Origin: Paludibacteraceae bacterium
Lineage (GTDB): Bacteria; Bacteroidota; Bacteroidia; Bacteroidales; Paludibacteraceae
DNA length: 64,000 nucleotides
Direction of reading: 5' to 3'
Assembly (NCBI GenBank): GCA_017461505.1
Contig: JAFTXV010000001.1
Location: forward strand, 1-64,000
The notes under the pieces were generated by a model. It worked only from the letters and a program-made list of their open reading frames with translations, ran no database searches and was not told the DNA's origin. Shown piece after piece: positions 3,337-59,719 of the stretch. Position numbers and translations under genes: made by a program. Position 1 is the stretch's first letter; each line of letters opens with the position of its first letter.

Positions 3337-3369
3337 TTTAGAGTTTAAAGTTTAGAGTTTAAAGGCAAG
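3337..3369 (+). repeat. Heptamer array filling the purB-purA gap
   Basis: Directly after the purB TAG stop come four tandem 7-mers, alternating TTTAGAG and TTTAAAG, then GCAAG, then five bases and the purA ATG. The same terminal 19 nt occur on the minus strand between the nitroreductase gene and pdxA. Confidence 0.85.
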
Positions 3370-3374
3370 ATTAT

Positions 3375-4628
3375 ATGAAAAAAGTAGATGTCGTATTAGG
3401 CATGCAATGGGGCGATGAAGGCAAAGGTAAGATCGTCGATGTATTGACCCCTCGTTATGAAGCAGTAGCACGCTTCCAAGGTGGACCAAACGCTGGTCAT
3501 AGTTTGTATTTCGGTGATAAGAGTTTTGTGCTCCACACCGTACCATCAGGCATCTTCCGCGATGGCACTACCAACATCATTGGTAATGGTGTAGTGATTG
3601 ACCCAATCATCCTCATGGAGGAGATCCACGCGATTGAGGCGATGGAGGTGGATGTAAAGAGCCGCTTGCAAATCGCTAAGCGTGCGAACTTGATTCTCCC
3701 TACCCACCGTATGTTGGATGCCGCTTCTGAAAAGAAGAAAGGCGATAAGAAAGTAGGCACCACTGGCAAAGGTATCGGTCCTACCTATACCGACAAGATT
3801 GCTCGCAACGGCTTGCGCGTTGGTGATATCCTGCGCCCTGACTTCTTGGAGCGTTACAATGCTCTACGCACTGCTCACCAAGAGCAATTGGGCGGTATTG
3901 AGTTGCCAGACGACAGCGCATGGCTCAGCGCCATCGAGGAGATGAAGCAATTCCCTATCGTGGACAACGAGATCATCGTAAACAACATGCTCCGCGAGGA
4001 CAAAGGTATCTTGGCAGAAGGCGCACAAGGTTCGTTGCTCGATGTGGACTTCGGTACTTATCCATTCGTAACCTCTAGCAATACCCTCTGCGCTGGTGCT
4101 TGCACCGGTTTGGGTGTAGCTCCACAACATATTGGCGAGGTATATGGTATCTTCAAAGCATACTGCACACGCGTAGGCGAAGGTCCATTCCCAACCGAGT
4201 TGTTTGACGAGGTAGGCGAGGAGTTGCGTAAGATCGGTCATGAGTTTGGCGCTACTACTGGTCGTCCACGCCGTTGCGGATGGCTTGACCTTGTAGCACT
4301 CAAATACACCGTGATGATGAACGGCGCTACATCGCTCATCATGATGAAGAGCGACGTACTCAACGACTTCGATACTATCAAAGTATGCGTGGGCTATGAG
4401 CTGAATGGCGAGAAGATTGACTACTTCCCATTTGAGGCAGACGCAGATAATATTAAACCTATCTACAAGGAGTTCCCAGGATGGAAATGCGATGTATCAG
4501 TTTGCCGTACCTACGAGGAGTTGCCAAAAGAGCTCAAAGAGTATATCGCATATATCGAGCAAGAGACTGGCGTAAGCATTGATGTAGTGTCTGTAGGTCC
4601 AGATCGTAGCGAGACTATTTTGAGATAG
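3375..4628 (+). CDS. purA: Adenylosuccinate synthetase
   Basis: PurA joins IMP and aspartate using GTP, the first committed step to AMP. The 417-residue length is normal. The N-terminal GTP loop reads QWGDEGKGK and carries the catalytic Asp. The IMP-binding catalytic His is in GGPNAGHSL. The GATTGRPRRCGWLD motif lies near residue 290. The protein is complete and appears active. It follows purB after a heptamer array and precedes carA after a 194-bp modular repeat, so AMP branch genes and pyrimidine/arginine precursor genes share one transcription direction. Confidence 0.95.
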   Translation: MKKVDVVLGMQWGDEGKGKIVDVLTPRYEAVARFQGGPNAGHSLYFGDKSFVLHTVPSGIFRDGTTNIIGNGVVIDPIILMEEIHAIEAMEVDVKSRLQIAKRANLILPTHRMLDAASEKKKGDKKVGTTGKGIGPTYTDKIARNGLRVGDILRPDFLERYNALRTAHQEQLGGIELPDDSAWLSAIEEMKQFPIVDNEIIVNNMLREDKGILAEGAQGSLLDVDFGTYPFVTSSNTLCAGACTGLGVAPQHIGEVYGIFKAYCTRVGEGPFPTELFDEVGEELRKIGHEFGATTGRPRRCGWLDLVALKYTVMMNGATSLIMMKSDVLNDFDTIKVCVGYELNGEKIDYFPFEADADNIKPIYKEFPGWKCDVSVCRTYEELPKELKEYIAYIEQETGVSIDVVSVGPDRSETILR

Positions 4629-4822
4629 TCGTAGATGGCGGCATAGCCGCGAAAGTGGCACCTACGGTGCGAAAATGGTCGCCGATGGCGACGAAAATGG
4701 CTAAAGCGTACGTGAGCGAAGCGAACCACTTTCATGAGCAAAGCGAATCACTTTCGTGAACGCAGTGAACCACTTTCGTGAGCGAAGCGAACAATAAATG
4801 AACAAAGTGAATTTATAAACAT
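4629..4822. repeat. Modular hairpin array plus 22-bp tandem repeats, copy 2 (purA-carA gap)
   Basis: Fills the gap from the purA stop to the carA ATG. Hairpin modules are GCGGC-ATA-GCCGC, CACC-TAC-GGTG and GTCGCC-GAT-GGCGAC, each followed by CGAAAGTG or CGAAAATG. Then come the shared block GGCTAAAGCGTAC and about five ~22-bp units of GTGAGCGAAGCGAA / CCACTTTC type. Relative to copy 1 the modules are shuffled and the loops differ while pairing is kept. The terminal unit (ATGAACAAAGTGAA) and the bases up to the ATG nearly match copy 1. Confidence 0.85.
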
Positions 4823-5896
4823 ATGTCAAAAGTAACATTGAAACTCTCCGATGGCACTTGCTTCACAGGTACATCATTTGGCTACGAGAAGAATGTAGCT
4901 GGAGAGCTCGTATTCAATACCACCATGATTGGTTATCCAGAGGTGCTGACCGACGCGAACTTCGAAGGTCAACTCGTGGTGATGACCTATCCATTGATTG
5001 GTAACTACGGCGTGCCTGCATGCAGCAGTTTGGAGAATGGTTTGTCCGAGTTTATGGACAGCCACCATATCCACCCTGCGGCAGTGATCATGACCGAGTA
5101 CAGCCCTGAGTACAGCCACTGGAATGCCAACGAGGATTTGGCATCATGGCTCATTCGTGAGCAGATACCTGCTATCACTGGCGTAGATACCCGTGAACTC
5201 ACGAAGCATCTGCGTGAGAACGGCACCATGCAAGCCTCTCTCATCTTTGAAGGCGATGACACTACTCCTGTAGCAAACGAGGAGAACCTCGTACCACAAG
5301 TGTCCTGCAAAGAGGTAGTGACCTACAATGCCGGTGCGGGCAAGAAAGTGGTGCTTGTAGATTGCGGCGTGAAGGAAGGCATCATCCGCTACCTGCTCGC
5401 TCGCGGTGTGGAGATAACACGCGTGCCATGGGATTACGACTTCAACACCCTCGAGTTTGACGCCCTGATGCTCAGCAACGGTCCTGGCGATCCAGAGGAT
5501 TGCGCTGTGACAATCGAAAATATCAAGACCTTCCTCGAGAAAGGCGAAGACAAACCATTGTTAGGCCTTGGACTCGGCAATCAACTCCTTGCTCTCGCAG
5601 CAGGTGCTGAGGTACTCAAACATAAATATGGTCACCGTGGTGCTACCCAACCTGTACAAATAGTAGGTGGCGAGCGCTGCTATATCACCGCCCAAAACCA
5701 CGGTTATGTAGTGGATGGCACTACCCTACCTGCTGAGTGGAAAGAGTGGTTCGTGAACATGAACGACCGCACCAACGAGGGTATTCGCCACACAGAGAAA
5801 CCATGGATGGCCGTACAGTTTATTCCAGAGATGAACTGCGGACCAAAAGATTCTGAATTCGTATTCGATAACTTCTTCCAACTTCTTAACAAATAA
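4823..5896 (+). CDS. carA: Carbamoyl-phosphate synthase small subunit with a degenerate glutaminase site
   Basis: The N-terminal half (residues 1-~150) is a normal CarA interaction domain and the C-terminal half has the class I glutamine-amidotransferase fold. The catalytic machinery is altered. The conserved GICLGHQ/GICMGNQ motif reads GLGLGNQ (residues 248-254), so the nucleophilic Cys is Gly250 (codon GGA). The conserved QFHPE reads QFIPE, so the catalytic His is Ile334 (codon ATT); Glu336 remains. The rest of the pocket, such as ITAQNHGY, is well kept and the frame is intact, so this is not a decayed pseudogene. By analogy with vertebrate CPS1, whose glutaminase domain also lost its Cys, I infer a structural subunit of an ammonia-dependent enzyme. 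Overlaps carB by one base. Confidence 0.9.
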   Translation: MSKVTLKLSDGTCFTGTSFGYEKNVAGELVFNTTMIGYPEVLTDANFEGQLVVMTYPLIGNYGVPACSSLENGLSEFMDSHHIHPAAVIMTEYSPEYSHWNANEDLASWLIREQIPAITGVDTRELTKHLRENGTMQASLIFEGDDTTPVANEENLVPQVSCKEVVTYNAGAGKKVVLVDCGVKEGIIRYLLARGVEITRVPWDYDFNTLEFDALMLSNGPGDPEDCAVTIENIKTFLEKGEDKPLLGLGLGNQLLALAAGAEVLKHKYGHRGATQPVQIVGGERCYITAQNHGYVVDGTTLPAEWKEWFVNMNDRTNEGIRHTEKPWMAVQFIPEMNCGPKDSEFVFDNFFQLLNK

Positions 5897-8800
5897 TGGC
5901 CATGGAGAAAAAAGATATCAAGAAAGTATTGGTGCTCGGTTCTGGAGCACTCAAGATTGGTGAAGCAGGAGAGTTCGACTACTCTGGTTCACAAGCCCTC
6001 AAGGCCCTTCGTGAAGAAGGTATCTATACCGTACTCATCAACCCTAATATCGCTACCGTACAAACGAGCGAAGGTGTAGCAGACAAGATCTACTTCTTGC
6101 CTGTTAACCCATTCTTTGTGGAGAAAGTGATTGCCAAAGAGCGTCCAGATGGCGTACTCCTTGCCTTCGGCGGACAAACCGCCCTCAACTGCGGTGTGGA
6201 GCTCTACAAGAGCGGCGTATTAGAGAAATATAACGTACAAGTGCTCGGTACTCCAGTACAAGCGATTATGGACACTGAGGACCGCGAGCTCTTCGTGGAG
6301 AAACTCGACGAGATCAACGTCAAGACCATCCAAAGCGAGGCTTGCGAGACTATTGAAGCTGCTCGTGCAGCAGCCAAAGAACTTGGTTATCCTGTTATTC
6401 TCCGTGCAGCATACGCTCTCGGTGGATTGGGTTCTGGTTTCTGCGACAACGAGGAAGAGCTTAACATCATCGCTGAGAAAGCTTTCTCTTTCTCTCCACA
6501 AGTACTTGTAGAGAAATCACTCAAAGGTTGGAAAGAGATTGAGTATGAGGTAGTTCGTGATAAATACGACAACTGTATCACCGTCTGCAATATGGAGAAC
6601 CTCGACCCACTCGGTATTCACACGGGTGAAAGTATCGTGATTGCTCCTACCCAAACATTGACCAAATCAGAGGCCGCTAAACTCCGTGCGTTGGCTATCA
6701 AGATCGTGCGCCACGTGGGTATCGTAGGTGAGTGTAACGTGCAATACGCGCTCGACCCCTATTCAGAAGACTATCGCGTGATTGAGGTGAATGCTCGTCT
6801 CTCTCGCTCTTCTGCGTTGGCTTCTAAGGCAACTGGCTATCCACTCGCTTTCGTAGCAGCAAAGATCGCTTTGGGCTATGGTCTCTTCGAGCTCAAAAAC
6901 TCTGTTACCAAAGATACGCCTGCTTTCTTCGAGCCAACACTCGACTATATCGTGGCTAAACTCCCACGCTGGGATCTTGGTAAGTTCCGCGGTGTAAATC
7001 GTGAGATCGGCTCCAGCATGAAGTCTGTGGGCGAGGTGATGGCTATCGGTCGTACCTTTGAAGATACCATCCAAAAGGGTCTTCGTATGATTGGTCAAGG
7101 CATGCACGGTTTCACCGAGAACAAGCAACTGCATGTGGACGACCTCGACCACGCATTGGCTGCTCCAACCGACAAGCGTATCTTCTTCCTCTCGCAAGCA
7201 TTGCATGCGGGTTACAGCATCGACCGCTTGCACGAGCTGACGAAGATTGACCGTTGGTTCCTCGAGAAACTCCAAAATATCGTTAAGACCGACAACGAAC
7301 TCAAAGCAGCTGGCACCCTCCAAAACATTGACGAGGACTTGATGCGCAAAGCCAAGATACAAGGTTTCTCCGATTTCCAAATCGCAAAAGCCGTTGGATT
7401 GGGCAACCAAATGGACATGGACTTTGCCGTGCTCGTAGCGCGCAAGCATCGTCTATCTTTGGGCGTTAAACCAGTTGTAAAACAGATAGATACACTGGCA
7501 GCAGAGTTCCCTGCCCAAACCAACTACCTCTACCTCACCTACTCAGGTATAGCCAACGATGTGAAGTACCTCAACGACCGCAAGTCCGTCGTAGTACTCG
7601 GTTCGGGTGCTTACCGTATTGGTTCGTCTGTAGAGTTTGACTGGTGCGGCGTACAAGCCCTCAAGACCATCCGCGAGAACGGCTATCGCTCGGTAATGAT
7701 CAACTACAACCCTGAGACCGTTTCCACGGACTACGATATGTGCGACCGTCTCTATTTCGACGAGCTCACCTTCGAGCGCGTGATGGATATCCTCGAACTG
7801 GAGAACCCTCATGGCGTCATCGTATCTACTGGTGGTCAGATTCCTAATAACCTCGCACTCAAGCTTGACGCACAACATATGCCTATCCTCGGTACTACCG
7901 CTCGCAGTATCGACAACGCCGAGGACCGCGATAAGTTCTCTGCGATGCTCGACCGCATTGGAGTGGACCAACCAGAATGGAGTGCCCTCACATCTATGGA
8001 AGATGTGAAGACCTTCATCGACAAAGTGGGCTTCCCAGTGCTCGTTCGTCCATCGTATGTACTCTCTGGTGCTGCGATGAATGTGTGCTTCAACCAAGAG
8101 GAGCTCGAGCGCTTCCTCAAGATGGCAGCAACTGTGAGCAAGAAGCACCCAGTGGTAATCTCTAAGTTCATGCTCAACACCAAGGAGATTGAGATGGACG
8201 CTGTGGCTAAAGATGGCGAGATCATCGCATACGCTATCTCCGAGCACGTAGAGTTCGCAGGTGTACACTCTGGTGACGCGACTATTCAGTTCCCAGCACA
8301 AAAACTCTATGTAGAGACCGTGCGCCGAATCAAGAAGATCTCAGGTCAAATCGCACGCGAGCTCAATATCTCTGGTCCATTCAACATCCAGTACCTCGCT
8401 CGCGAGAACGAAATCAAGGTAATCGAATGTAACCTCCGTGCTTCACGCTCGTTCCCATTCGTATCTAAAGTATTGAAGATCAACTTCATCGACATAGCTA
8501 CTCGTATCATGCTCGGTCTCCCTGTAGAGAAACCAAGCAAGAACTTCTTCGACTTCGACTATGTAGGTGTCAAGGCATCGCAGTTCTCTTTCAACCGTCT
8601 GCAAAAGGCCGACCCAGTCATCGGTGTGGACATGACCTCTACGGGTGAGGTAGGTTGCCTCGGCGAGGACGCTAACGCAGCACTCTTGACCTCTATGCTT
8701 TCCGTAGGCATGCGCGTACCTAAGAAGAATGTACTCTTCTCTATCGGTTCGCCAAAGCAAAAAGCACAGATGCTCGATTCAGCTCGTCAACTCATCGCGA

Positions 8801-9129
8801 AGGGCTTCAATATCTACGCTACCCTTGGTACAAGCAAGTTCCTCACAGAGGCAGGTATTGCTAATACCACGGTATATCAACCATCGGAGGAAGGCACTCC
8901 ACAAGCTATCGACCTCATGCGTGAAGGCGTGATCGAGTTCGTAGTGAGCGTACCAAAGGATATCGTAACCGACCCACAAAATGATGTTTGCTACCACGTT
9001 CGTCGTGCGGCTATTGACCTCAACGTGCCATTGCTCACCAATGCACGCCTTGCAGCAGCGTTCATCAACGCTTTCTGCACCGTCGATGTCAACGACCTCG
9101 CTATCCAATCGTGGGATGAGTATAAGTAA
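5896..9129 (+). CDS. carB: Carbamoyl-phosphate synthase large subunit
   Basis: This full-length 1077-residue synthetase makes carbamoyl phosphate from bicarbonate, ammonia and two ATP for pyrimidines and arginine. Two ATP-grasp halves are visible: residues ~1-400 with ALGGLGSGF and EVNARLSRSSALASKATGYP, and ~560-940 with PSYVLSGAAMNV and ECNLRASRSFPFVSK. A C-terminal methylglyoxal-synthase-like regulatory domain follows from ~945. Several stretches (GSSMKSVGEVMAIGRTFE, WKEIEYEVVRD, VKQIDTLAAE) read like animal CPS1 rather than E. coli CarB; as I recall this is usual for Bacteroidetes. The start overlaps the carA stop (TAATG), so translation is probably coupled. A second possible start is the Met at 5902. 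Confidence 0.95.
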   Translation: MAMEKKDIKKVLVLGSGALKIGEAGEFDYSGSQALKALREEGIYTVLINPNIATVQTSEGVADKIYFLPVNPFFVEKVIAKERPDGVLLAFGGQTALNCGVELYKSGVLEKYNVQVLGTPVQAIMDTEDRELFVEKLDEINVKTIQSEACETIEAARAAAKELGYPVILRAAYALGGLGSGFCDNEEELNIIAEKAFSFSPQVLVEKSLKGWKEIEYEVVRDKYDNCITVCNMENLDPLGIHTGESIVIAPTQTLTKSEAAKLRALAIKIVRHVGIVGECNVQYALDPYSEDYRVIEVNARLSRSSALASKATGYPLAFVAAKIALGYGLFELKNSVTKDTPAFFEPTLDYIVAKLPRWDLGKFRGVNREIGSSMKSVGEVMAIGRTFEDTIQKGLRMIGQGMHGFTENKQLHVDDLDHALAAPTDKRIFFLSQALHAGYSIDRLHELTKIDRWFLEKLQNIVKTDNELKAAGTLQNIDEDLMRKAKIQGFSDFQIAKAVGLGNQMDMDFAVLVARKHRLSLGVKPVVKQIDTLAAEFPAQTNYLYLTYSGIANDVKYLNDRKSVVVLGSGAYRIGSSVEFDWCGVQALKTIRENGYRSVMINYNPETVSTDYDMCDRLYFDELTFERVMDILELENPHGVIVSTGGQIPNNLALKLDAQHMPILGTTARSIDNAEDRDKFSAMLDRIGVDQPEWSALTSMEDVKTFIDKVGFPVLVRPSYVLSGAAMNVCFNQEELERFLKMAATVSKKHPVVISKFMLNTKEIEMDAVAKDGEIIAYAISEHVEFAGVHSGDATIQFPAQKLYVETVRRIKKISGQIARELNISGPFNIQYLARENEIKVIECNLRASRSFPFVSKVLKINFIDIATRIMLGLPVEKPSKNFFDFDYVGVKASQFSFNRLQKADPVIGVDMTSTGEVGCLGEDANAALLTSMLSVGMRVPKKNVLFSIGSPKQKAQMLDSARQLIAKGFNIYATLGTSKFLTEAGIANTTVYQPSEEGTPQAIDLMREGVIEFVVSVPKDIVTDPQNDVCYHVRRAAIDLNVPLLTNARLAAAFINAFCTVDVNDLAIQSWDEYK

Positions 9130-10158: not shown

Positions 10159-10159
10159 C

Positions 10160-13910: not shown

Positions 13911-13996
13911 CAGCTCTCACCTCTAAACTGTAGCTCGCCCCACGAGCGTCCTCTAAACTGGCACTCTGTGCCCCTACACTTCACACCCTACACCAG
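13911..13996 (-). repeat. Heptamer/hairpin mosaic repeat (intergenic)
   Basis: Read on the minus strand: three 7-mers of GGTGTAG type, a hairpin GGCAC-AGA-GTGCC, AGTTTAG, then AGGACGCTCG-loop-CGAGCTAC, another AGTTTAG and AGGTGAG. The AGGACGCTCG...CGAGCTAC unit with its flanking AGTTTAG recurs inside the ABC-F gene at 35096-35142 and, as a variant, at 43797-43864. The GGTGTAG part recurs inside the PPTase gene. Confidence 0.8.
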
Positions 13997-33572: not shown

Positions 33573-33617
33573 GCTATAGGACACCCTATGGGCTATAGGT
33601 GATAGGTTATAGGCAAG
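33573..33617 (+). repeat. Heptamer array filling the DUF4837-ABC-F gap
   Basis: Directly after the TAG: GCTATAG, then a degenerate part with CCC-TAT-GGG, then GCTATAG, GTGATAG, GTTATAG and a terminal GCAAG. The ABC-F ATG lies 5 bp later. The ending GCAAG is the same as at 3365 and in the array before pdxA. Confidence 0.85.
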
Positions 33618-33622
33618 GGGAG

Positions 33623-35383
33623 ATGGCGGTGGTAACTCCATATCTATTGGTAGAGGATCTCACGAAATCGGTGGGGTCAAAAGTATTGTTTAGCAATATC
33701 AGTTTCTCGGTCAACAAAGGACAACGCATTGCCCTCATCGCACGCAATGGCATTGGTAAGAGTACATTGCTAGATATTCTTATGGGCAAAACGGACTACG
33801 ACGAGGGTAAGATAACATGGCGCAAAGACCTGAAGGTAAAATATTTGCCTCAAAAATTGCAAGGAGAAGAGGCGATAAGGCTATTAGGCGATGAAGCGAT
33901 AAGCCTTGAGCAGTTCAACAAACTCAGCGGTGGACAGCAGAAGAAGCTTCTATTGGAACATGTCTTGAACGATGAACCCGATATGCTGCTATTGGACGAA
34001 CCTACTAACCACCTTGATCTGGAGAATGTGGTATGGCTGGAAGATTATTTGGGCGATAAGCGCACCGCACGTGGAGAACGCCCACTCACCATCTTGATGG
34101 TTACGCACGATCGCTATTTCTTGGATAATGTTTGCACCGATATCTTCGAACTCGACGAACATAACCTCTACGCCTATCATGGTAATTATGCCTACTATGT
34201 AGAAAAGCGCAACGAGCGTATCGAAGCCCAAAATGCCGAAGTAGAAAAAGCACGCAATCTCTATCGTACCGAACTAGAATGGATGCGACGCATGCCACAA
34301 GCACGTGCACACAAAGCCCAATACCGCATTGATAACTTCTATGAACTAGAGAAGAAAGCCAAACAACAGCGTAACGAAGCAGAAGTTCGTTTGGCTGTCA
34401 AATCGGGCTATATCGGCAATAAGATATTCGAAGCAAAGGACGTCTGCAAAACGTACATCTCACCCTCTACAGGCGAAGAAAAGGTCATATTACGCCACTT
34501 CAACTACGTTTTTTCACGCTACGAGAAACTTGGTATCATCGGTAATAATGGTACGGGCAAGAGCACTTTCATCAAACTCCTTCTTGGAGAAGTACCTGCC
34601 GATAGCGGAACATGGGATATAGGTACAACGGTGCGGTTTGGCTATTATGCTCAAACGGGCTTGCAATTTGAAGCAGGCAAGAAGGTGATTGATATTGTGC
34701 GCAATATAGCCGAAGTAGTGGATTTAGGCAACGGGCAGAAGATGACAGCTAGTCAATTCTTGCAAATGTTCCTCTTTTCTCCCAGTCAACAATACGATTT
34801 CGTGGAAAAGCTATCTGGAGGTGAACGCCAGCGTTTACACCTATGTTCTGTGTTGATGCGCAGTCCAAACTTCCTTATTCTTGACGAGCCAACCAATGAC
34901 CTGGATATCCCTACCCTCAATGTGCTAGAGGATTACTTAAAAAACTTCCAAGGGTGCTTGATAGTAGTGAGCCACGACCGCTATTTTATGGATCGCGTGG
35001 TAGATCACTTGTTTGTTTTCCACGGCAATGGCAATGTGCAGGATTTTCCAGGCAACTACACGCAGTATCGCCTAGAGGCGAAAGGCGCAAGCACCAATTT
35101 AGAGGACGCTCGCAAAGCGAGCTACAGTTTAGAGGTTAAAGGCACTAAAGTTAAGACCGAACAAAAACGCCGCCTCAGCTTCAAAGAGAAACGTGAACTT
35201 GAGGAACTGGAAAAGCAGATGCCGCTATTGGAAGAAGAGAAAGCCCAATTGGAAGCCCTACTCTCTGGTGGTGCAACCTTACCCGACGAGATAGCAAAAG
35301 CCTCCGCACGCTACAAGGAGGTGCAAGAGGCTTTAGACGAAGCAGAGATGCGTTGGCTGGAAATAATCGTTCTTGTTGAATAA
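33623..35383 (+). CDS. ABC-F family ATPase (Uup/EttA-type) with a shortened first domain
   Basis: ABC-F proteins bind ribosomes and relieve stalls or antibiotic block; they have two ABC domains and no membrane part. The start is the ATG of MAVVTPYLLVEDL; the eight codons before it lie in the heptamer array. Domain 1 has Walker A ARNGIGKST (near 36), SGGQQKK and LLLDEPTNHLD. Domain 2 has GNNGTGKST (near 308), LSGGERQR and LILDEPTNDLD, with a charged linker and coiled-coil C-terminus. Between the Q-loop (LPQ) and signature (LSGGQ) of domain 1 only ~23 residues remain, where I expect ~80; the residue includes four repeat-encoded 8-mers. A second repeat unit sits in the C-terminal linker. Both ATP sites look usable. 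Confidence 0.85.
   Translation: MAVVTPYLLVEDLTKSVGSKVLFSNISFSVNKGQRIALIARNGIGKSTLLDILMGKTDYDEGKITWRKDLKVKYLPQKLQGEEAIRLLGDEAISLEQFNKLSGGQQKKLLLEHVLNDEPDMLLLDEPTNHLDLENVVWLEDYLGDKRTARGERPLTILMVTHDRYFLDNVCTDIFELDEHNLYAYHGNYAYYVEKRNERIEAQNAEVEKARNLYRTELEWMRRMPQARAHKAQYRIDNFYELEKKAKQQRNEAEVRLAVKSGYIGNKIFEAKDVCKTYISPSTGEEKVILRHFNYVFSRYEKLGIIGNNGTGKSTFIKLLLGEVPADSGTWDIGTTVRFGYYAQTGLQFEAGKKVIDIVRNIAEVVDLGNGQKMTASQFLQMFLFSPSQQYDFVEKLSGGERQRLHLCSVLMRSPNFLILDEPTNDLDIPTLNVLEDYLKNFQGCLIVVSHDRYFMDRVVDHLFVFHGNGNVQDFPGNYTQYRLEAKGASTNLEDARKASYSLEVKGTKVKTEQKRRLSFKEKRELEELEKQMPLLEEEKAQLEALLSGGATLPDEIAKASARYKEVQEALDEAEMRWLEIIVLVE
33871..33902 (+). repeat. Four tandem 8-mers in frame inside ABC-F domain 1
   Basis: GGCGATAA, GGCTATTA, GGCGATGA, AGCGATAA. 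The stretch AGGCTATTAGGCGAT recurs exactly inside mutY at 49366-49380. Confidence 0.8.
35070..35142 (+). repeat. Heptamer/hairpin mosaic in frame inside the ABC-F C-terminal linker
   Basis: After 7-mer-like units (TAGAGGC, GAAAGGC) comes TTTAGAGGACGCTCG, hairpin loop CAAAG-type centre, then CGAGCTACAGTTTAGAGGT and TTAAAGGC. The two arms are identical to the intergenic unit at 13911-13996 on the other strand; only the 5-nt loop differs. Confidence 0.85.
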
Positions 35384-43796: not shown

Positions 43797-43864
43797 GCCT
43801 CTAATCTCTCGCCTTTAACCTATAAACTGTAGCGAAGCGTCCTCTAAACTCAAGCGCTCCGCGC
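43797..43864 (-). repeat. Heptamer/hairpin mosaic filling the acyl-CoA ligase-coaX gap
   Basis: Minus-strand order: hairpin-like GCGC...GCGC part, GTTTAGA, GGACGCTTCGCTACA, GTTTATA, GGTTAAA, GGCGAGA, GATTAGA, GGC, then ATG of coaX. The GGACGCT...CTACAGTTT core is a variant of those at 13911 and 35070. Confidence 0.85.
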
Positions 43865-49050: not shown

Positions 49051-50127
49051 ATGAACAAGGAGCTGCTGCATAATAAATTGATTGAGTGGTACGAACAAAA
49101 TCATCGTATCCTGCCTTGGCGTGAGACGGATGATCCATACAAGATTTGGATTTCAGAGATTATTCTTCAACAAACTCGTGTGGCTCAAGGTATGGAATAC
49201 TACCATCGCCTCATCACACGATTCCCTGATATTCAGTCGCTTGCTCAGGCTCATGAGGACGAAGTCTTGCTCTACTGGCAAGGTCTCGGCTACTACTCGC
49301 GTGCTCGCAATCTGCATAAGGCGGCGCAGTTGATGAAAAACCACGCGATTTTTCATCAGGAGATGAGGCTATTAGGCGATAAGGCGAGAGGCGAGGAGAT
49401 ATTCGCTGCGCTCAAGAGTATGCCAGGTGTTGGCGATTATACCGCAGGAGCGATTGCTTCCTTTGCTTTCAATCTCCCCTACCCTGCCTTGGACGGCAAT
49501 GTCTATCGCGTTCTCTCGCGACTCTACGACTGTGAAATAGCCTTTGACACCACCCAAGGCAAAAAACATTTTCGCCAATTGGCAGAAGAGTTGTTAGATA
49601 AAGAGCGTCCTCGTCTCTTTAATTCAGCTATTATGGAGTTGGGTGCCTTGCACTGCGTACCTACCGCACCGGATTGCTCTACTTGTCCGCTCAACACTTG
49701 GTGCAAAGCATTGACTAACAATACGGTAGAACTATTGCCGGTACGCAAGCCTCGTCCAAAAGTGCGAGATAGATACTTGGAGTACACCATATATATCGCG
49801 CGCGATAAGACAACCCTCATCCACCAACGCAAAGAAAACGACATATGGAAACATTTGTGGGAGTTTGTGTGCGCAGAGCGCACAGGCGAAGAGGCGATAA
49901 GGCGAAAGGTTAAAGGCGAGAAAATATTGGAGCTGACGCATGTGCTTTCGCACCAGAAGTTGCACGCTCGGTTCGTAATAAAAAACGTGTCAGAACTCCC
50001 TGAGATTCCTGACACGGTAGTGGTTAGTTTGTCTGATTTAGATAATTATGCTTTCTCTCGTTTAACGCTGAAAGCGATAGAGAAACTACTCATCCCTCAT
50101 CGTTTATTTCTGCCCCCTAAACAGTAG
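49051..50127 (+). CDS. mutY: A/G-specific adenine DNA glycosylase
   Basis: MutY removes adenine mispaired with 8-oxoguanine. The 358-residue protein (start at MNKELLHNK) has PWRETDDPYKIWISEIILQQT with the catalytic Glu, the HhH motif MPGVGDYTAGAIASF and LDGNVYRVLSR near 150. The cluster ligands are in CVPTAPDCSTCPLNTWC. The C-terminal NUDIX-like domain reads 8-oxoG. Two repeat-derived stretches lie in frame: residues ~94-115, lengthening the loop before the HhH, and ~273-290 in the NUDIX-like domain. All catalytic residues are kept. Confidence 0.93.
   Translation: MNKELLHNKLIEWYEQNHRILPWRETDDPYKIWISEIILQQTRVAQGMEYYHRLITRFPDIQSLAQAHEDEVLLYWQGLGYYSRARNLHKAAQLMKNHAIFHQEMRLLGDKARGEEIFAALKSMPGVGDYTAGAIASFAFNLPYPALDGNVYRVLSRLYDCEIAFDTTQGKKHFRQLAEELLDKERPRLFNSAIMELGALHCVPTAPDCSTCPLNTWCKALTNNTVELLPVRKPRPKVRDRYLEYTIYIARDKTTLIHQRKENDIWKHLWEFVCAERTGEEAIRRKVKGEKILELTHVLSHQKLHARFVIKNVSELPEIPDTVVVSLSDLDNYAFSRLTLKAIEKLLIPHRLFLPPKQ
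49331..49395 (+). repeat. Hairpin plus heptamer/octamer array in frame inside mutY (first site)
   Basis: TGATGAAAAA (49331-49340) pairs exactly with TTTTTCATCA (49349-49358). Then at 49366-49395 come AGGCTATT, AGGCGATA, AGGCGAG, AGGCGAG. Shares AGGCTATTAGGCGAT with the ABC-F insertion. Confidence 0.8.
49867..49920 (+). repeat. Hairpin plus heptamer array in frame inside mutY (second site)
   Basis: TGTGCGC-AGA-GCGCACA hairpin (49867-49883), then at 49892-49920 AGGCGATA, AGGCGAA, AGGTTAA, AGGCGAG. The same ending (AGGTTAA, AGGCGAG) is found in the intergenic array upstream of coaX. Confidence 0.85.
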
Positions 50128-51046: not shown

Positions 51047-51163
51047 ATTTCTTTAAGTTGAAAGTTTATAGTTGAAAGTTTAAAGGCAAGGCGGCTATGT
51101 CGCAGTACCTCGCCTATAACCTATAGCGTAGCGTCCTATAGCCTCAAAGAGGCGTCCTATAAC
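51047..51163 (-). repeat. Two opposed heptamer arrays filling the OYE-SDR gap
   Basis: Minus strand from the OYE TAG: GTTATAG, GACGCC hairpin part, GCTATAG, GACGCTAC, GCTATAG, GTTATAG, GCGAG. A short GC-rich centre follows. On the plus strand AAGTTGA and AAGTTTA units run at 51056-51090 and end in AAGGCAAG. The arrays face each other and span the entire gap from stop to start. Confidence 0.85.
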
Positions 51164-52402: not shown

Positions 52403-52452
52403 CGTAGTATAATCTAGTATCGGGAGTCACGAATCGAGAGTCGTGAGTCCAG
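52403..52452 (-). repeat. Heptamer array filling the 5AR-OYE gap
   Basis: After the TAA of the upstream gene come CTGGACT, CACGACT, CTCGATT, CGTGACT, CCCGATA and CTAGATT on the minus strand, then 8 bp and ATG. Six 7-mers in exact register, with a consensus unlike the other arrays. Confidence 0.85.
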
Positions 52453-53308: not shown

Positions 53309-53348
53309 CTAAGATTTTTCGAGATAACCAAATAAATATTAATTATTG

Positions 53349-54251
53349 TTATATTTTTCGTGTTTTTTGACTGATAAATAAGCCAATAATGATAATAATT
53401 ATACCTACTATTTTCCAAATAGGCAGTATTTCATCAAACAGCATCCACATGAGCAATGCCGTAAAAATAGGGCGCACATTATTGAATACGTTCGCGCGCG
53501 TGACACCTATCTTTCTCACCGTATAGCAAAACAAGATAAACGCTACCACCGACGCAAAGATAGCTAGATAGAGAACGGCTAGCCATGGAGTAGTATGCTG
53601 TAGCCATGGTGTAGCATGGTGTAGAAGTTGATTGCCCTCGGTAAAGCCCCACAATGGATAGAAGAGACATAGCGAAAACAACTGTACATAGAAGACTATC
53701 GTCAATGGCGAATAATGAGTGGGGATACGGCGCAAAACGATAGAATAACTCACTGACATACTAACCGTTATAATGGCAAGTAATATTCCCCAACGACTAC
53801 CCAATGCAAAATCATCCGACCCTATAAGCAATAGCATCAGCATACCTATCGTGGAGAGCAAAATACCGATAATATTGTTTCGCGTAATATGTTCGCGCAA
53901 TAAGACGAACGCAAAGATGGGAGCCAGCACAGGCTGCGTACTCAACAGCGCTTCTGCAATTGTAGGAGAAGCAAAGCTCTGGTAGGTATATGTCTCAAAG
54001 ATAAAATACAGAAATGGTTGAAACAATCCACCCAGCATAAAGAGCGGTATATCCCGCTTATCCACTCGCTGTAATCCTACTATATCACTCTTGCGAAACA
54101 CTAATCCCACTAGCAACATCAAGAGAACAGCCAACGTGAATCGTATTACAATCAAGGTCAGCGGTGTGAAGACCAACAATGCCTCTTTCACTGCTATTCC
54201 TGCACCTGCCCAGATGAGCATCGCAATGATAATGGTAAGGTATGGAAGCAT
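53349..54251 (-). CDS. DMT-superfamily (EamA) transporter
   Basis: The 300-residue protein has ten predicted membrane helices arranged as two EamA repeats (first FTPLTLIVIRFTLAVLLML, ALLSTQPVLAPIFAFVLLRE; second ending NVFNNVRPIFTALLMWMLFDE). Such proteins export metabolites or amino acids. The start is the ATG one base after the gtrA stop. Residues ~210-224 are a tandem heptapeptide (ATPWLQH, TTPWLAV) encoded by a 21-bp repeat between helices, an insertion relative to relatives. Substrate unknown. Confidence 0.85.
   Translation of the reverse strand: MLPYLTIIIAMLIWAGAGIAVKEALLVFTPLTLIVIRFTLAVLLMLLVGLVFRKSDIVGLQRVDKRDIPLFMLGGLFQPFLYFIFETYTYQSFASPTIAEALLSTQPVLAPIFAFVLLREHITRNNIIGILLSTIGMLMLLLIGSDDFALGSRWGILLAIITVSMSVSYSIVLRRIPTHYSPLTIVFYVQLFSLCLFYPLWGFTEGNQLLHHATPWLQHTTPWLAVLYLAIFASVVAFILFCYTVRKIGVTRANVFNNVRPIFTALLMWMLFDEILPIWKIVGIIIIIIGLFISQKTRKI
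53581..53622 (+). repeat. 21-bp tandem repeat in frame inside the DMT transporter gene
   Basis: Two copies of a 21-bp unit (AGCCATGGWGTAGYATGSTGT), each built of ~10-mers resembling those at 40391-40430. A unit length of 21 keeps the frame. Confidence 0.8.
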
Positions 54252-54252
54252 A

Positions 54253-54678
54253 CTACTCTCGCTTTTTATCCTTATAGAAAGGTAGCAACACAAAATAATT
54301 GATCACCCCAGCCAAAGCTATAGCCGCTATTCCAGCCCACTCTTCCGACATATGCAACCAAATCAGTACATTCAAGAATATCAATTGAATAACATAATTC
54401 AACGCACGTCCAAACAAAAATCCTCCTGCATTCTTCAACGTTGGACGTACACGAAATGTATAAAAACTGGTCATCAGATAGTTATACACCATCTCTATCA
54501 CGAATCCCACAGTGAAAGCAACAGATGTGAGCCACGTATCTTCTGCCCACTTCGTTTGAAAAATCCCCAACAACACGTAATAGATACCATACTGCAAGCC
54601 CGTTCCCAATGCTCCCACGAGCACGAAACGAACGGCAGAACGATATTTCAAAGGCAATCGCCCAGTGAGGGTTTTCAT
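54253..54678 (-). CDS. GtrA-family membrane protein
   Basis: The 141-residue protein has four membrane helices. GtrA hallmarks are RFVLVGALGTGLQYGIYY near 18 and NYLMTSFYTFR near 66. Family members are thought to flip or transfer undecaprenyl-linked sugars for surface polysaccharide modification. It sits between a guanine deaminase gene and the DMT transporter, with 8-bp and 1-bp gaps, so it is in an operon whose logic is not obvious. Confidence 0.85.
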   Translation of the reverse strand: MKTLTGRLPLKYRSAVRFVLVGALGTGLQYGIYYVLLGIFQTKWAEDTWLTSVAFTVGFVIEMVYNYLMTSFYTFRVRPTLKNAGGFLFGRALNYVIQLIFLNVLIWLHMSEEWAGIAAIALAGVINYFVLLPFYKDKKRE

Positions 54679-54686
54679 GTTGATAA

Positions 54687-55958
54687 TTATACTTGTTTTA
54701 TTTCTTTACCTTGACAGAAACGGTGTTGAATATGGCGGTCATCGCCCAGATAAACAAAACGCTCTAATCGCTCTATAGGCGATGAGGCGATGAGATGATG
54801 AGGTGAGAGGCAAAGGTCATCAATGACGAGTGCATCGAATGCATATCCTTTTTCAAAACTGCCCACCTTTCCAAAAAGCGAACCTCCAACCTTTGTTGCC
54901 ATATAAAAGACCTCTGAAAGTGTCAAGAAAGGATACTTGCCATCAGAAGCTGTATATTGCAACTTGCTCATCTGCACCGCATACTGCATCACACGGAACA
55001 TACTGAGATGATGCCCCCCTGCAATATCCGAACCCAAAGCCACATTCACTCCCTGCTGCAATAACTTGCGCACAGGTGCTATACCAGAAGCCAAATTACA
55101 ATTGGATGTTGGACAATGCACCGCATATACATTCTGCTCACGCATCAACTGGAGTTCTTCGCCATCCGTATAACAACAATGTGCCATCAACGTAGGCGTC
55201 TGACCAAACAATCCATAGCGATAATAGGCATCCCCATAGCATGATGACTCTGGTTCTAACTCTTTGACCCAAGCAATCTCCTGCTTATTTTCGCTTAAAT
55301 GCGATTGAACAGGCAATAACGTCTGCTTTGCCACTTCTCCCATGCATCGCAACATCTCTGGCGTACATGATGGAATGAAACGAGGCGTGATAATCGGCTT
55401 CACCAAAGGCATCGAAGCGAGTGAGTCTATCAAGGTTTGTATGCCAGCCGCCCATTCAGCAGATGTATTGCACAAGTTGGCTGGAGCATGTCGATCCATA
55501 CCCACTAACCCTATCCATGCGCCCATACCTGCCTCATCAAACGTGCGAGCAAGAATATGAGTTGCCAGAGTATGGACAGTGGCAAACACTGCAGCACGCA
55601 TAGTACCTTGACGCCACAGTTCCGAAACAAAAGAATGGTAGATTGTTTCGGCATACGCTTCATCTGCAAACTTTGCCTCCTCTGGAAATACATAGGTATT
55701 GAGCCAAGGTAGCAGTTGCATATCCATAGCCACACCCATATTCGCAAACTGAGGTGCATGCACATGCATATCGTTCATAGCAGGGATCAGAAGCTTATCC
55801 CCAAAATCCACCAATTGGTCATAGGCAAAATCTTCAGGAAGTGTATGATACACCCCCTGAATGATTCCGCAGTCATCCACTGCTATATATCCTCGCTCGT
55901 ACACATCAAAATGTGTAGGTGAGGAGGTAAACAATATGTTTGCTTGATATACTATCAC
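54687..55958 (-). CDS. guaD: Guanine deaminase / amidohydrolase
   Basis: The 423-residue metal-dependent hydrolase probably converts guanine to xanthine and ammonia. Motifs are NDMHVHAPQ near 62 (metal His pair), QSHLSENKQEI near 218, MAHCCYTDGEE near 257 and LGSDIAGGHHLSMF near 310, with LPWLNTYVFPEEAKF typical of GuaD. The last ~40 residues contain a repeat-derived stretch (PHHLIASSPIER, residues ~381-394) between conserved VIDD and the closing ERFVYLGDDRHI. 3 bp downstream of alaS. Confidence 0.82.
   Translation of the reverse strand: MIVYQANILFTSSPTHFDVYERGYIAVDDCGIIQGVYHTLPEDFAYDQLVDFGDKLLIPAMNDMHVHAPQFANMGVAMDMQLLPWLNTYVFPEEAKFADEAYAETIYHSFVSELWRQGTMRAAVFATVHTLATHILARTFDEAGMGAWIGLVGMDRHAPANLCNTSAEWAAGIQTLIDSLASMPLVKPIITPRFIPSCTPEMLRCMGEVAKQTLLPVQSHLSENKQEIAWVKELEPESSCYGDAYYRYGLFGQTPTLMAHCCYTDGEELQLMREQNVYAVHCPTSNCNLASGIAPVRKLLQQGVNVALGSDIAGGHHLSMFRVMQYAVQMSKLQYTASDGKYPFLTLSEVFYMATKVGGSLFGKVGSFEKGYAFDALVIDDLCLSPHHLIASSPIERLERFVYLGDDRHIQHRFCQGKEIKQV
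54777..54816 (+). repeat. 7/8-mer array in frame inside guaD
   Basis: Units of AGGCGATG type repeat twice, then degenerate AGATGATG, AGGTGAG and AGGCAAAGG. Resembles the ABC-F and mutY insertions and ends in the common AGGCAA motif. Confidence 0.7.
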
Positions 55959-55961
55959 TAA

Positions 55962-58556
55962 TTACATGATTGCATTGAGCATCTCATCCATGGCAGCAGC
56001 AAGACCTTCTACGTTGCGCCCGCCAGCAGTAGCCATCCATGGTTGACCGCCGCCACCGCCTTGGATATGCTTAGCAGCCGACTTGATGATCTGACCTGCG
56101 TTCTTTCCCGCATCTACCAATGGTTGCGATAGAACCACAGTAATCATGGGTTTGCCTTCCCACTCGGTAGCACCAACGACTGCGAACTTCACATCCGTAA
56201 ACTTGCCTTTCAGCAACATGGGCACGTTACGCAGCAAGTTTGCATCTACAGTACCTTCCACGCGCACCAGTTTAATACCATTGTAGTCCTCTGCCTTTGC
56301 AATCAGTTCATCGCGGAAACGCTCTACTTTCTCAGCCATGAAGGCCTCAATCTGCTTCTTCAAGCCCGCGTTCTCATCAATGGCTTTGCGGATAGCGCCT
56401 GCCAAGTCTGGAGCGTTGTTGAACAGCGCACGCAGACCGCCAATCATATCCACTTGTTTGTAGTAGAGTTCATCGGCCTTGGCTGCTGTCACTGCCTCAA
56501 TACGGCGAATACCCGCAGCCACACTGGTTTCCATCACAATGCGCACCGCACCAATCTTACCCGTGCTTGCCACGTGGCAACCACCGCACAACTCTGCCGA
56601 TGGACCGTACTTGATGACACGTACCTCATCGCCATATTTCTCGCCGAAGAGTGCCATAGCACCCATTTCTTTGGCTTTCTCTATTGGAGTGTTACGACAT
56701 TCCTCAAGAGGCAAGTCTTGGCGAATCATCTCGTTGGCAAGCATCTCCACTTGGCGAAGCTCCTCCGCACTCACTTTCTGGAAGTGTGAGAAGTCAAAGC
56801 GCAAGCTGTCTGCCGATACGAAGCTACCCTTCTGCTCCACATGCTCGCCCAATACCTGACGCAGAGCGTAGTGTATGATATGCGTAGCAGTGTGGTTGCA
56901 AGCAATGGCTTGACGACGAGCGACATCTACCTCAGCCATCATCTTGCTCTTGATATTCTCAGGCAATTCTGCACAAAGGTGTACTGCCAGATTGTTCTCA
57001 CGTTTGGTATCTAACACGCGCACATTACCCAATGTACCCGAATCGCCTACCTCACCACCCATCTCAGCGTAGAATGGGGTTTGGCTGAGCACAACTTGAT
57101 AGAGTTCTTTGCCTTTTTGGTTCACCTTGCGGTAGCGCAGCACTTGTGTCTCGCATTGCAGCACGTCGTATCCATCAAACTCTGTCTCACCTTCGCTAAT
57201 CACTACCCAGTCGCCCAGTTCTTGTTTGTTGGCTTGACGTCCCATCTCTTTTTGGTGCTCCAATGCCTTGTTGTACTCTTCCTCATTGGTTGTAAAGCCG
57301 TTCTCGCTGAGAATCAATTGAGTAAGGTCGAGAGGGAAACCGTATGTATCTTTCAATGTGAACACATCCACACCCGAGATCTCTTTGCCCTTGGCCTCTT
57401 TCATGAGTTTGTCGAGCAAAGAGATACCCTTGTCCAAGGTACGGAGGAAGCCATCCTCCTCGCTCTTGATAACAGGAGTGATTTGTCCTTCTTGTTTCAC
57501 GAGTTCTGGATAAGCTACACCCATGTCGGCAATGAGTTGTGGCACCAGTTTGTACATAAACGCCTCGCGTTGGCCGAGGAAGGTATAGCCATAGCGCACA
57601 GCACGGCGAAGGATTCGGCGAATCACATAACCTGCCTTCTCGTTGCTTGGCAACTGACCGTCTGCAATAGCAAAAGCGATAGTACGGATATGATCGGCAA
57701 TCACGCGCATAGCCACATCCACTTTCTCCTCTTTGCCATATTCAGCACCGCAAATCTCGCCAATCTTCTTCAACATTGGTTGGAATACATCGGTGTCGTA
57801 GTTGGACTGTTTGCCTTGCATGGTGCGCACGAGACGCTCAAAGCCCATACCGGTGTCAATCACGTTGTATGGAAGTGAGTCGAGTGAGCCATCGGCTTTG
57901 CGATTGTATTGCATGAACACGAGGTTCCAAATCTCAATCACTTGTGGGTGATCTTTGTTCACAAGTTCACGACCAGAGATAGCTGCTTTCTCCTCTTCGC
58001 TACGGCTATCCACGTGAATCTCTGAGCAAGGACCACAAGGACCTGTATCGCCCATCTCCCAGAAGTTGTCGTGCTTATTGCCATTGAGGATATGGTCAGC
58101 AGGCAAGTGCTTTGCCCAGATGCTAGCAGCCTCATTATCACGCTCGATGCCTTCCTCTGGCGAACCTTCGAAGACGGTCACATAGAGGTTCTTTGGGTCA
58201 AGTTTGAGCACATCCACAAGGTACTCCCATGCCATGTCGATGGCACCCTGCTTGAAGTAGTCACCAAATGACCAGTTGCCAAGCATCTCGAACATGGTGT
58301 GGTGGTAGGTATCGTGACCTACTTCCTCGAGGTCATTATGCTTACCACTCACGCGGAGGCACTTCTGCGAGTCCGCTACGCGAGGATATTGAATAGGGTC
58401 GTTGCCAAGGATGATACCCTTCCAAGGGTTCATACCTGCATTGGTAAACATCAGTGTTGGGTCATCCTTGATGACCATAGGTGCTGAAGGTACAATCTTG
58501 TGTCCTTTCTTCTCAAAATAATCCAAAAAGGATTGTCTAATCTCTTGACTTGTCAT
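55962..58556 (-). CDS. alaS: Alanyl-tRNA synthetase
   Basis: The 864-residue class II synthetase charges tRNA-Ala. N-terminal motif 2/3 blocks are [16 protein letters not shown] near 33 and [10 protein letters not shown] near 205. The editing domain carries [11 protein letters not shown] near 557 and the zinc site [10 protein letters not shown] near 659. The C-terminal C-Ala domain ends with a Gly-rich [17 protein letters not shown]. Complete and standard. It shares an apparent operon with pdxA upstream and guaD downstream. Confidence 0.96.
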
Positions 58557-58569
58557 ATATTTTATTATA

Positions 58570-59694
58570 TTAATCTACTGGTACAAATTTCTCAACGTGA
58601 TACTCACGCTTCACTTCTTTCACTTCCACTACTAATTGGTTAGCAGTCAGTTCGGTATTTTGTTTGCGTGTCTTCAGCACATCTATTGCGGTATAGATTG
58701 CGTGCAGCATACTCGTCTCCGATGCCTCGTTCTTGCCAGCGATCGCATAGGCAGTTCCATGGTCTGGGGAGGTGCGAACTACACGCAAACCAGCCGTAAA
58801 GTTCACGCCGCTCATATCCAACGCTTTGAAGGGTGCCAAACCCTGATCATGATACATGGCCAACACCGCATCAAAATGGTTGTATTCACCTGCGCCAAAG
58901 AAGCCATCTGCTGAATAGGGGCCAAATGCCCAGATGCCGGCCTCTTGTGCTTGAGCAAGAGCAGGACGTATCACCTCTTGTTCCTCTTTGCCTATTAAAC
59001 CATTGTCGCCAGCATGTGGATTCAATGCCAACACAGCAATACGAGGTTTGCGACAAGAGAAATCCGTTTGCAAGGTTTTATTCAACACTTGCAATTTGGC
59101 CATGATATTCTCCACAGTCACCTTTTCGCTCACTTGTGCAATAGGGGTATGGTTGCATAGCAATGCAACGCGCATACGGTCGCTAAGCATCATCATTAGA
59201 GAGTCAGTAGATGGTAGATCGCTGCGCTGTAGATCGGCTGCGCCTGTAGATGGTAGGAACAGATGAGTGAGGTACTCGGTATGACCCGAATAGCGGAATT
59301 GGTCGCATTGGATATTATCCTTATTGATTGGCGCTGTCACCAGGGCGTCCACCAATCCTTGTTGCAAGTCTGCTGTCGCGCGTTGCAAACTCTTCAACGC
59401 AGCCTGTCCTGCCTCTGGAGTAGCGATACCCAACTGCAATGGCGTATCATCGCTATAACAGGTAATCATATTCAAACGACCATCTTTCGCTTGCTTAGGG
59501 GAGTCTATAATATTCCATTGGATATTATGCAACTCCTCACCGAGGGTCTTTGCATGCAGGCGTGCCACTTTGGCATTGCCGTATACGATAGGGCGACATA
59601 TCTCGCAGATATGAGGATTAATCAAACTCTTGAGGATAATCTCATACCCTACTCCATTGATATCACCCGCTGTAATTGCTATAATCGGTTTCAT
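58570..59694 (-). CDS. pdxA: 4-hydroxythreonine-4-phosphate dehydrogenase
   Basis: PdxA oxidises 4-phosphohydroxy-threonine in the DXP-dependent pyridoxal-phosphate pathway; SerC nearby acts one step earlier. The 374-residue protein shows [12 protein letters not shown] near 8, the metal-binding HTEYLTHLF near 137, [11 protein letters not shown] near 226 and [19 protein letters not shown] near 281. Residues ~147-163 ([17 protein letters not shown]) are encoded by a heptamer/hairpin repeat and absent from PdxA as I know it. The insertion comes just after the HTEYL metal motif, so it probably forms a surface loop. Confidence 0.92.
59207..59256 (+). repeat. Heptamer/hairpin mosaic in frame inside pdxA
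   Basis: GTAGATG, GTAGATC, then GCTGCGCT, GTAGATC, hairpin GGC-TGC-GCC, GTAGATG. Seven-base units alternate with small GC palindromes, the same architecture as the intergenic mosaics but with another 7-mer consensus. Confidence 0.8.
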
Positions 59695-59719
59695 ATGCCT
59701 TGCCTTTAAACTCTAAACT
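59695..59719 (-). repeat. Heptamer array filling the nitroreductase-pdxA gap
   Basis: From the nitroreductase TAG: AGTTTAG, AGTTTAA, AGGCAAG, GCAT, then pdxA ATG. The last 19 bases before GCAT are identical to the purB-purA array. Confidence 0.85.

Follow-up and report, generated by a model that had tools for sequence, protein, structure and literature searches.

Within a 64,000-nucleotide stretch of DNA from a Paludibacteraceae bacterium (assembly GCA_017461505.1, contig JAFTXV010000001.1, positions 1 to 64,000; the window), the gaps between genes contain runs of degenerate 7-bp units, here termed heptamer arrays, several of which enclose small hairpins. Comparison with the rest of the genome and with other genomes of the genus confirms these arrays and reveals that they occur in each of the eight genomes sampled, differ in wording (their consensus) between lineages, are either present as whole blocks or missing, with some indels the size of a unit, lie in both orientations and enter genes. 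The arrays are probably small repeats dispersed at the DNA level, consisting of degenerate heptamers that often carry hairpins and arising through slippage combined with copying between sites.

The genome to which the window belongs (G000) is a draft of 1.74 Mb in 22 contigs, 81.85% complete, and 464 kb of it was sampled (400 kb of contig C4 in addition to the window, approximately 27% of the genome), together with 800 kb of a congener that is 98% complete (G014). Genes were called with a home-made caller based on codon usage, and a stretch with at least 17 of 21 matches at a lag of 7 bp was counted as a lag-7 stretch. In this genome-wide search, 34 arrays are found in the gaps of G000 and 41 in those of G014, as compared with 0.0 (mean of five shuffles) and 0.2 in shuffled sequence, which excludes the noise of shuffled DNA as their source. 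Wording is common to unrelated loci within one genome: the 13-mer AGTTTAGAGTTTA has 28 copies in the entire G000 draft, whereas its letters in reverse order do not occur. A second peak in the period is present at 11 and 22 bp.

A sequence-only reading of the window had noted the arrays in gaps between a stop codon and the next start codon, and the arrays are not restricted to such gaps. The G000 arrays are divided among 217 co-directional gaps (28 arrays), 34 divergent gaps (4) and 26 convergent gaps (2), and lag-7 stretches are also present within genes, with seven in 204 well-scoring genes of G000 (282 kb) and 14 in 520 kb of G014 genes. Per length of gap, the co-directional class leads in G000 (28 arrays in 64.6 kb, with 4 in 15.2 kb of divergent and 2 in 9.4 kb of convergent gaps), and the co-directional and divergent classes are level in G014 (32 in 108.7 kb and 7 in 24.5 kb, with 2 in 15.9 kb of convergent gaps). 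These densities indicate that non-coding DNA is special, and stop-to-start gaps are not.

The searched set holds 178 genomes of the genus, eight of which were sampled for arrays (G000, G014 and six further congeners at 100 kb each, the G090 sample being 36% masked), and lag-7 arrays are present in all eight. The six congeners contain between 0.44 (G016, a single stretch) and 5.5 (G089) lag-7 stretches per 10 kb of gap, whereas none is found in two 100-kb samples from other families of the order, one from each of two, or in 50 kb of E. coli. The wording differs between genomes, with TTTAGAG and AGGTTAG in G000 and CACCTTT and TCAATTC in G089. Among 16 genomes from other families, AGTTTAGAGTTTA and its backward control are each found 0-2 times. 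In some congeners the control outnumbers the pattern, and it is itself frequent in some (for example, 12 copies in G015, 17 in G021 and 14 in G006), which may reflect another heptamer wording. Together, the two surveys show that the sampled genomes share the period and that the wording is specific to the lineage.

The hairpins set in the arrays are units of approximately 14-25 nt with constant edges (GGAC-G...C-TAC/TAT) and interchangeable arms. A comparison of G000 and G014 gaps gives the layout AGGAC, an arm starting with G, a loop of mostly 2-5 bases, a matching arm ending with C, TAC or TAT, and a heptamer. A pattern specifying only the edges (GGAC, 11-18 free bases, TA(C/T)NGTTTAG) was run with a backward control on 61 genomes of the genus and has matches in 23 of them. 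Matches exceed the control in G000 (21 vs 1), G014 (50 vs 2), G074 (22 vs 2), G054 (19 vs 0), G070 (13 vs 3), G041 (10 vs 1), G055 (8 vs 2) and G072 (6 vs 3); the remaining 53 genomes have 0-2 matches, similar to their controls (0-3). The interiors were taken from the 150 matches listed, in which G054 is partly represented, and the 140 from these eight genomes yield 105 distinct interiors. Among the matches listed, 75 of these 105 interiors form an anchored stem of at least 4 bp, as compared with a mean of 8.5 and a maximum of 18 in 500 arm swaps, and only 1 of the 10 listed from other genomes folds. The stems of folding copies are 4-6 bp long.

The arms of the hairpins covary. In 59 distinct copies of equal length without gaps, 92.9% of the cells are paired (63.9% in shuffles), both partners have changed in 72 cells (24.4 in shuffles) and the covariation score is 0.637 (0.184 in shuffles), and none of 500 shuffles reaches any of these values. 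Sliding the partners by 1-3 columns lowers pairing to 21-48%. Two further measures, of pair count and pair type, are indecisive, as 48 and 142 of the 500 shuffles score as high. The first pair is G-C in 52 of the 59 copies, and the 19 stems with a single mismatch contain G.T in six cases, A.C in eight and other mismatches in five.

Hairpins also occur in tandem, separated by 8-nt linkers such as TATAGGAC, TATTGGAC and TACAGGAC. When both members are required to fold, at least one of them with 4 bp or more, 20 adjacent pairs are found (4 in the G000 sample and 16 in the G014 sample), and the neighbors differ in sequence in all 20, which speaks against growth by the copying of whole units, a process that would often place like units side by side. 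The window holds one string of this kind (51108-51163, minus strand), GTTATAGGAC-GCCTC-TTT-GAGGC-TATAGGAC-GC-TAC-GC-TATAGGTTATAGGCGAGG, with two different hairpins. A bolder proposal, which we regard as unlikely, is that the hairpins are replicators selected for shape over sequence, which would spread with neither a transposase nor a reverse transcriptase by structure-guided template switching at replication that rewrites both arms at once. If true, it would explain why the neighbors differ in every pair and yet both fold, as well as the constant linker between variable palindromes, which is the reverse of the CRISPR layout.

The six gaps first singled out in the window illustrate both components. 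All six runs score above dinucleotide shuffles at lag 7 (2000 shuffles per stretch), as had been claimed, and their strict register is retained in three of them. In the first, four TTTAGAG/TTTAAAG heptamers followed by GGCAAG (3335..3364, plus strand) overlap the stop codon between purB (2044-3336) and purA (3375-4628); positions 3337-3369 give 19 of 26 matches (p 0.0005), and lag 14 outscores lag 7. The second regular array (52403..52452, minus strand; 23 of 43 matches, p 0.001) has another wording, CTGGACT CACGACT CTCGATT CGTGACT CCCGATA CTAGATT, in which no hairpin is seen. The third (59695..59719, minus strand; 9 of 18 matches, p 0.034, with lag 5 equally good) is short, reads AGTTTAG AGTTTAA AGGCAAG and lies directly 3' of a TAG stop codon, upstream of pdxA.

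In the other three arrays, hairpins interrupt the register. The array at 33573..33617 (plus strand; 21 of 38 matches, p 0.0005), between a DUF4837 gene and an ABC-F-type ATPase gene, combines TATAGG-type heptamers with the hairpin GGAC-ACCC-TAT-GGGC-TATAGG (33579-33599, plus strand), in which the bottom pair is A against C in G000 and G-C in G014, and ends with GGCAAG. That at 43797..43864 (minus strand; 26 of 61 matches, p 0.0065), between an AMP-binding enzyme gene and a type III pantothenate kinase gene, contains the hairpins GCGC-GGA-GCGC (43854-43864, minus strand) and GGAC-GC-TTC-GC-TAC (within 43819-43842, minus strand), heptamers and GGCGAG. The gap at 51047-51163 (41 of 110 matches, p 0.005) holds the hairpin string described above and, in the opposite orientation, a second array, AAGTTGAAAGTTTATAGTTGAAAGTTTAAAGGCAAG (51047..51107, plus strand, with the repeat part at approximately 51052-51085). 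The (A)GGC(A/G)AG end common to several arrays is confirmed: GTTWWAGGCRAG occurs 21 times and its backward control 3 times. The flanking genes had been called unrelated, which is not the case for all six gaps, since purB and purA belong to one pathway. The idea that the arrays are an assembly artefact or a collection of stretches picked by eye could draw on the draft state of the assembly and on the choice of the six stretches by hand, with p-values that are uncorrected; its probability is negligible given the genome-wide excess over shuffles, which is the stronger test, and the recurrence of identical or related arrays at orthologous sites of genomes that were assembled separately, so that the arrays are not confined to one assembly.

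Orthologous sites reveal how the arrays come and go. Between purB and purA, 17 loci with at least 86% purB identity, drawn from 30 of 80 loci, were compared: the genes overlap by 4 bp in 12 of them, a 39-bp gap with related heptamers is present in two, a 36-bp gap without an array in two, and one locus stops short of purA. The corresponding G014 gap is 38 bp long and differs from that of the window by one base. At the 33573 site, for which G014 is the nearest relative among the genus genomes searched (80% DNA identity in this region), 12 genomes show an overlap of stop and start codons in four cases, arrays of three wordings in five and other short spacers in three, one of them TTTAG-like. In 80 co-directional gaps that are orthologous between G000 and G014, compared under a rule that overlooks gaps holding hairpins only, an array with a period of 7, 8 or 11 bp is present in both genomes in 6 gaps, in one genome only in 16 (13 in G000 and 3 in G014) and in neither in 58, and in 5 of the 16 the partner gap measures 6 bp or less. 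Additionally, one locus carries different perfect stems in two congeners (GGGC-AGA-GCCC in G014 and GGTGC-TGAA-GCACC in G074), the orientation is reversed in G014 at another, and a 69-nt element of G074 has no counterpart in G124 and G177 at a third; further orthologous hairpins are identical or differ in the loop only.

The purB gene has a strong match in at least 21 of the 61 genus genomes, its own included, and two weak ones, in a search whose prefilter may miss some. Four congeners have purB proteins 99-100% identical to that of the window and the next 92% or less, and G014 is near 80% identical in DNA elsewhere; from these identities, a transfer or replacement of purB is possible. Among named genomes, the purB protein search returned metagenome-assembled genomes labelled Bacteroidales, Paludibacteraceae and the like, many of them obtained from ruminants, the nearest being 99% identical.

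Recent changes are visible in one sister pair, G124 and G111 (approximately 95% identity), in a small comparison of 51.6 kb aligned. Ten indels of at least 7 nt are present (7, 11, 12, 18, 21, 24, 25, 27, 42 and 43 nt), of which those of 43 and 24 nt form one array block of about 67 nt. Those of 7, 21 and 42 nt are multiples of seven and all lie in array sequence, which lends modest direct support to the earlier suggestion of growth driven by slippage. The 42-nt array by which G111 differs from G124 has 20 further matches in its own genome at E <=0.01 (29 at E <=10), and G124 contains a 28-nt exact match to it at another place.

Under the reading that the arrays are dispersed repeats, heptamers would lengthen or shorten in steps of 7 nt through slipped-strand replication, and existing arrays would seed new sites through some copying route. 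The arms could be kept matched if one arm templated the other (quasi-palindrome template switching) or if only foldable copies were copied, and the effect on the host would be that of a spacer between genes or a filler in tolerant protein linkers, not regulation. Local slippage might instead make each array in place, with no copying between loci and with shared wording a product of base composition, which we consider rather improbable. Arrays in all eight sampled genomes with lineage-specific wording, the indels of unit size and a young array with no exact donor in its own genome are all in line with it, but it does not account for the 28 copies of one 13-mer, the constant GGAC...TAC edges around different stems in G000 and G014 or the many matches of the 42-nt array within one genome.

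Copies within genes reveal the same elements in a coding context. In the well-scoring genes of the G000 and G014 samples, 19 hairpins are found, 11 sense and 8 antisense; nine of the 11 sense copies, one of them probably a chance match, share one frame, and peptides such as SLEDA and YSLEV recur. The 42-nt array of G111 is intragenic as well, and 42 is a multiple of three. In the ABC-F-type ATPase gene that adjoins the 33573 array, the hairpin element NLEDARKASYSLEVKG (35096..35143, plus strand) lies in frame in the C-terminal linker. The G014 copy of this element exhibits a double change from T-A to C-G in the stem in addition to a mismatch of C against A elsewhere, and this site is occupied in other congeners by different repeats or by sequence without repeats. 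The same gene contains an in-frame array of the octamer AGGCGATA (33870..33904, plus strand), where G074 has TTTAG and a hairpin element.

Further copies are present in other genes of the window. In mutY, a repeat of the AGGCGATA type, EMRLLGDKARGEE (49360..49398, plus strand), lies in frame, with 8 extra residues nearby relative to a solved MutY, and a second in-frame repeat (49888..49920, plus strand) encodes EEAIRRKVKGE. Two elements are antisense to their genes: a AGGCGATG/AGGTGAG repeat (54778..54816, plus strand) within an Amidohydro_1 gene (54687-55958, minus strand), and the hairpins GC-TGC-GC and GGC-TGC-GCC (59207..59262, plus strand), joined by a third type of linker, TGTAGATC, within pdxA, which has 14 extra residues at this place relative to a solved homologue. 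Because the linkers of conserved enzymes are rewritten by repeats, these elements may mislead gene calling and protein comparison. Two genes of equal length (681 aa), at C4a:170144-172186 in G000 and C18:1510-3552 in G014, match in sequence before the linker, which is coded by heptamers as KGERLKVKG in G000 and is of the octamer type, KGDKAIRRKAK, in G014; judging from this comparison, the wording of the repeat seems to have been switched at one site.

Translation initiation and RNA processing had also been suggested as roles, and the placement of the repeats does not favor them, as arrays occur in both orientations, in divergent and convergent gaps and within genes. A related idea, to which we assign a low probability, is post-transcriptional control through mRNA leaders that carry binding sites or hairpins, the role that MacGregor suggested for TAACTGA repeats. 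Many arrays abut the start codon, the heptamers of four wordings lean mildly to the sense strand in co-directional gaps (32 sense, 18 antisense) and the hairpins covary, all of which is in line with such control. In the same gaps, however, the hairpins divide into 16 sense and 10 antisense, arrays missing from the same gap in congeners and copies within genes fit it poorly, and G.U mismatches are not in excess of A.C. A regulatory role is disfavored because of these orientation counts and the mismatches in stems. Selection on one strand would favor one of the two mismatch types, so that selection acting on the RNA strand was rejected as well. Seeding at a particular stop codon was also rejected, as TAG precedes 4 of 23 arrays in G000 (compared with 30 of 199) and 10 of 31 in G014 (compared with 60 of 370), a lean in G014 only. 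No Rfam family has a match at gathering scores within the window.

Mobilization by a known enzyme would offer another route of dispersal. That the units are REP-type miniature transposons moved by a RAYT-like Y1 transposase appears very improbable to us, although the reverse strand of the unit reads GTAG-hairpin-CGTCC, which resembles the GTAG and CGTC tags described in Di Nocera 2013 (PMC3733652), where intragenic copies and alternative complementary stems are also reported for REPs. A clear Y1_Tnp match (PF01797) is present in the hairpin-bearing congener G072; among the 14 congeners searched, however, 3 have any match (G072, G117 and G041, the last below cut-off) and 2 exceed the cut-off, and there is none in G000 (82% complete) or in G014, which is 98% complete and contributes most hairpins among the matches listed. 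The variability of the stems also seems to exceed that which a sequence-specific DNA binder would suggest. Reverse transcriptase (RVT_1, PF00078) has no match in G000 or G014 and matches in 5 of the 15 genomes. Loss of the hairpin nuclease SbcCD was tried as a cause and rejected for want of a clean link: some match to TIGR00619 is present in 13 of 15 genomes, and the SbcD equivalog cut-off is reached by 2 of 15, the hairpin-bearing G070 and G027, whose sample is without a lag-7 array, and G039, also without an array in its sample, is below it.

Several observations weigh against the interpretation as dispersed repeats that slip and are copied. Neither of the two families searched, Y1_Tnp and RVT_1, was found in G000 or G014, which leaves the copying step without an agent. 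Just three of the ten larger indels between G124 and G111 are multiples of seven, and no exact donor for the young 42-nt array was found in its own genome, where the closest other site agrees at 34 of 36 positions. Among the matches listed, 30 of the 105 distinct interiors lack a 4-bp stem, and at orthologous sites stems are broken at 33573 in G000 and at one pair in the ABC-F-type gene of G014. The different stems of G014 and G074 at one locus could reflect separate insertions, and the sense lean of the heptamers is not predicted by a purely neutral reading.

Among known systems, the likeness to cyanobacterial heptamers noted from the window alone is a fair one. The remark that such heptamers are not known to be described in Bacteroidales was not quite right, since MacGregor 2015 (PMC4679880) reports sets of TAACTGA heptamers in five Bacteroidetes, two of the sets in Paludibacter (Bacteroidales), and other heptamers in some. 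In that source, TAACTGA repeats of the BOGUAY genome lie mostly forward, just before the start codon, and indels of these repeats between two Cyanothece strains occur mostly in 7-nt increments. Tandem 7-bp units above chance in non-coding DNA, which define the STRR and TAACTGA kind, are present here, and the arrays resemble the TAACTGA repeats as tandem intergenic heptamers, many of them just upstream of start codons; the heptamers here are oriented 32 sense to 18 antisense. Unlike those repeats as far as they are described there, the arrays vary in wording within and between genomes, embed hairpins and enter genes, and the tandem TAACTGA unit (TAACTGATAACTGA) is absent from the G000 (464 kb) and G014 (800 kb) samples. 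The repeats of Mrazek 2007, as described in PMC4679880, are long simple sequence repeats with units of 5-11 nt, of which seven is favored and ascribed to slippage; the arrays differ from this description in their degenerate wording, embedded hairpins and presence or absence as whole blocks.

The REPs of Di Nocera 2013 (PMC3733652) are sorted there by GTAG or CGTC tags, and the units share with them short palindromes, similar ends, alternative complementary stems and intragenic copies. Unlike in the REPs described there, the G and C of the tag pair here as the bottom of the stem, the stems measure 4-6 bp and are set in heptamers, and no RAYT was found in G000 or G014. As in the Rickettsia palindromic elements (see also PMC3733652), palindromic repeats lie in frame in unrelated genes, whereas the units here are approximately 14-25 nt long, have hypervariable arms and a heptamer setting, and are present in many copies in gaps.

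In build, the closest counterparts may be the SDR elements of cyanobacteria, which Elhai reportedly described in 2008 as units of 21-27 nt with compensatory stem changes, nested in tandem STRR heptamers and with no known agent. By this definition, and leaving kinship in sequence aside, both are small hairpins with compensatory stem changes within tandem heptamers; the present units differ in phylum, in the GGAC and TAC edges, in the strings that join different hairpins through an 8-nt linker and in the in-frame copies in genes. The repeats would thus behave like STRR plus SDR elements or like REPs, as a likeness and not an established membership in either. In openly licensed literature (CC0, CC BY, CC BY-SA), no published description of the hairpin family in Bacteroidales was found. 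REP and SDR elements raise the question of how very small repeats can spread when they lack an enzyme of their own. For this question the genus offers abundant, lineage-specific and in-frame repeats with changing yet matched arms and one pair of sister genomes (G124 and G111) with recent gains or losses, and closed genomes from sister strains might directly reveal a copy being born.

Related repeats occur elsewhere in the window. A divergent gap (13920..13972, minus strand) contains the hairpins GGAC-GCTCG-TGGGG-CGAGC-TACAG and GGCAC-AGA-GTGCC in a TTTAGAG context. Two strings have 7-nt GAAA(A/G)TG linkers, one at 1878..1940 (plus strand), with the hairpins GTCGCC-GTT-GGCGAC, GCAGC-AGA-GCTGC and GCACC-TAT-GGTGC, and another at 4637..4700 (plus strand), and they are followed by 22-bp tandem repeats of CGTGAGCGAAGCGAACCACTTT at 1951-2012 and 4711-4792, respectively. 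The 22-bp unit seems to consist of the 7-nt linker and a degenerate 15-nt hairpin, so that a link between the periods of 22 bp and 7 bp is possible. In the G000 sample, the most frequent 12-mers belong to an 11-bp repeat (TTAGTTAGTGA and its relatives, with up to 35 copies) and lie outside the top 45 of the G014 sample. Words of the TGCAAAGGTAC type are among the top 12-mers of both samples and fit the Bacteroidetes promoter box TAnnTTTG read on the other strand. Between approximately 14000 and 24000, several genes of the window score low for the codon usage of the genome, and this segment was perhaps acquired.

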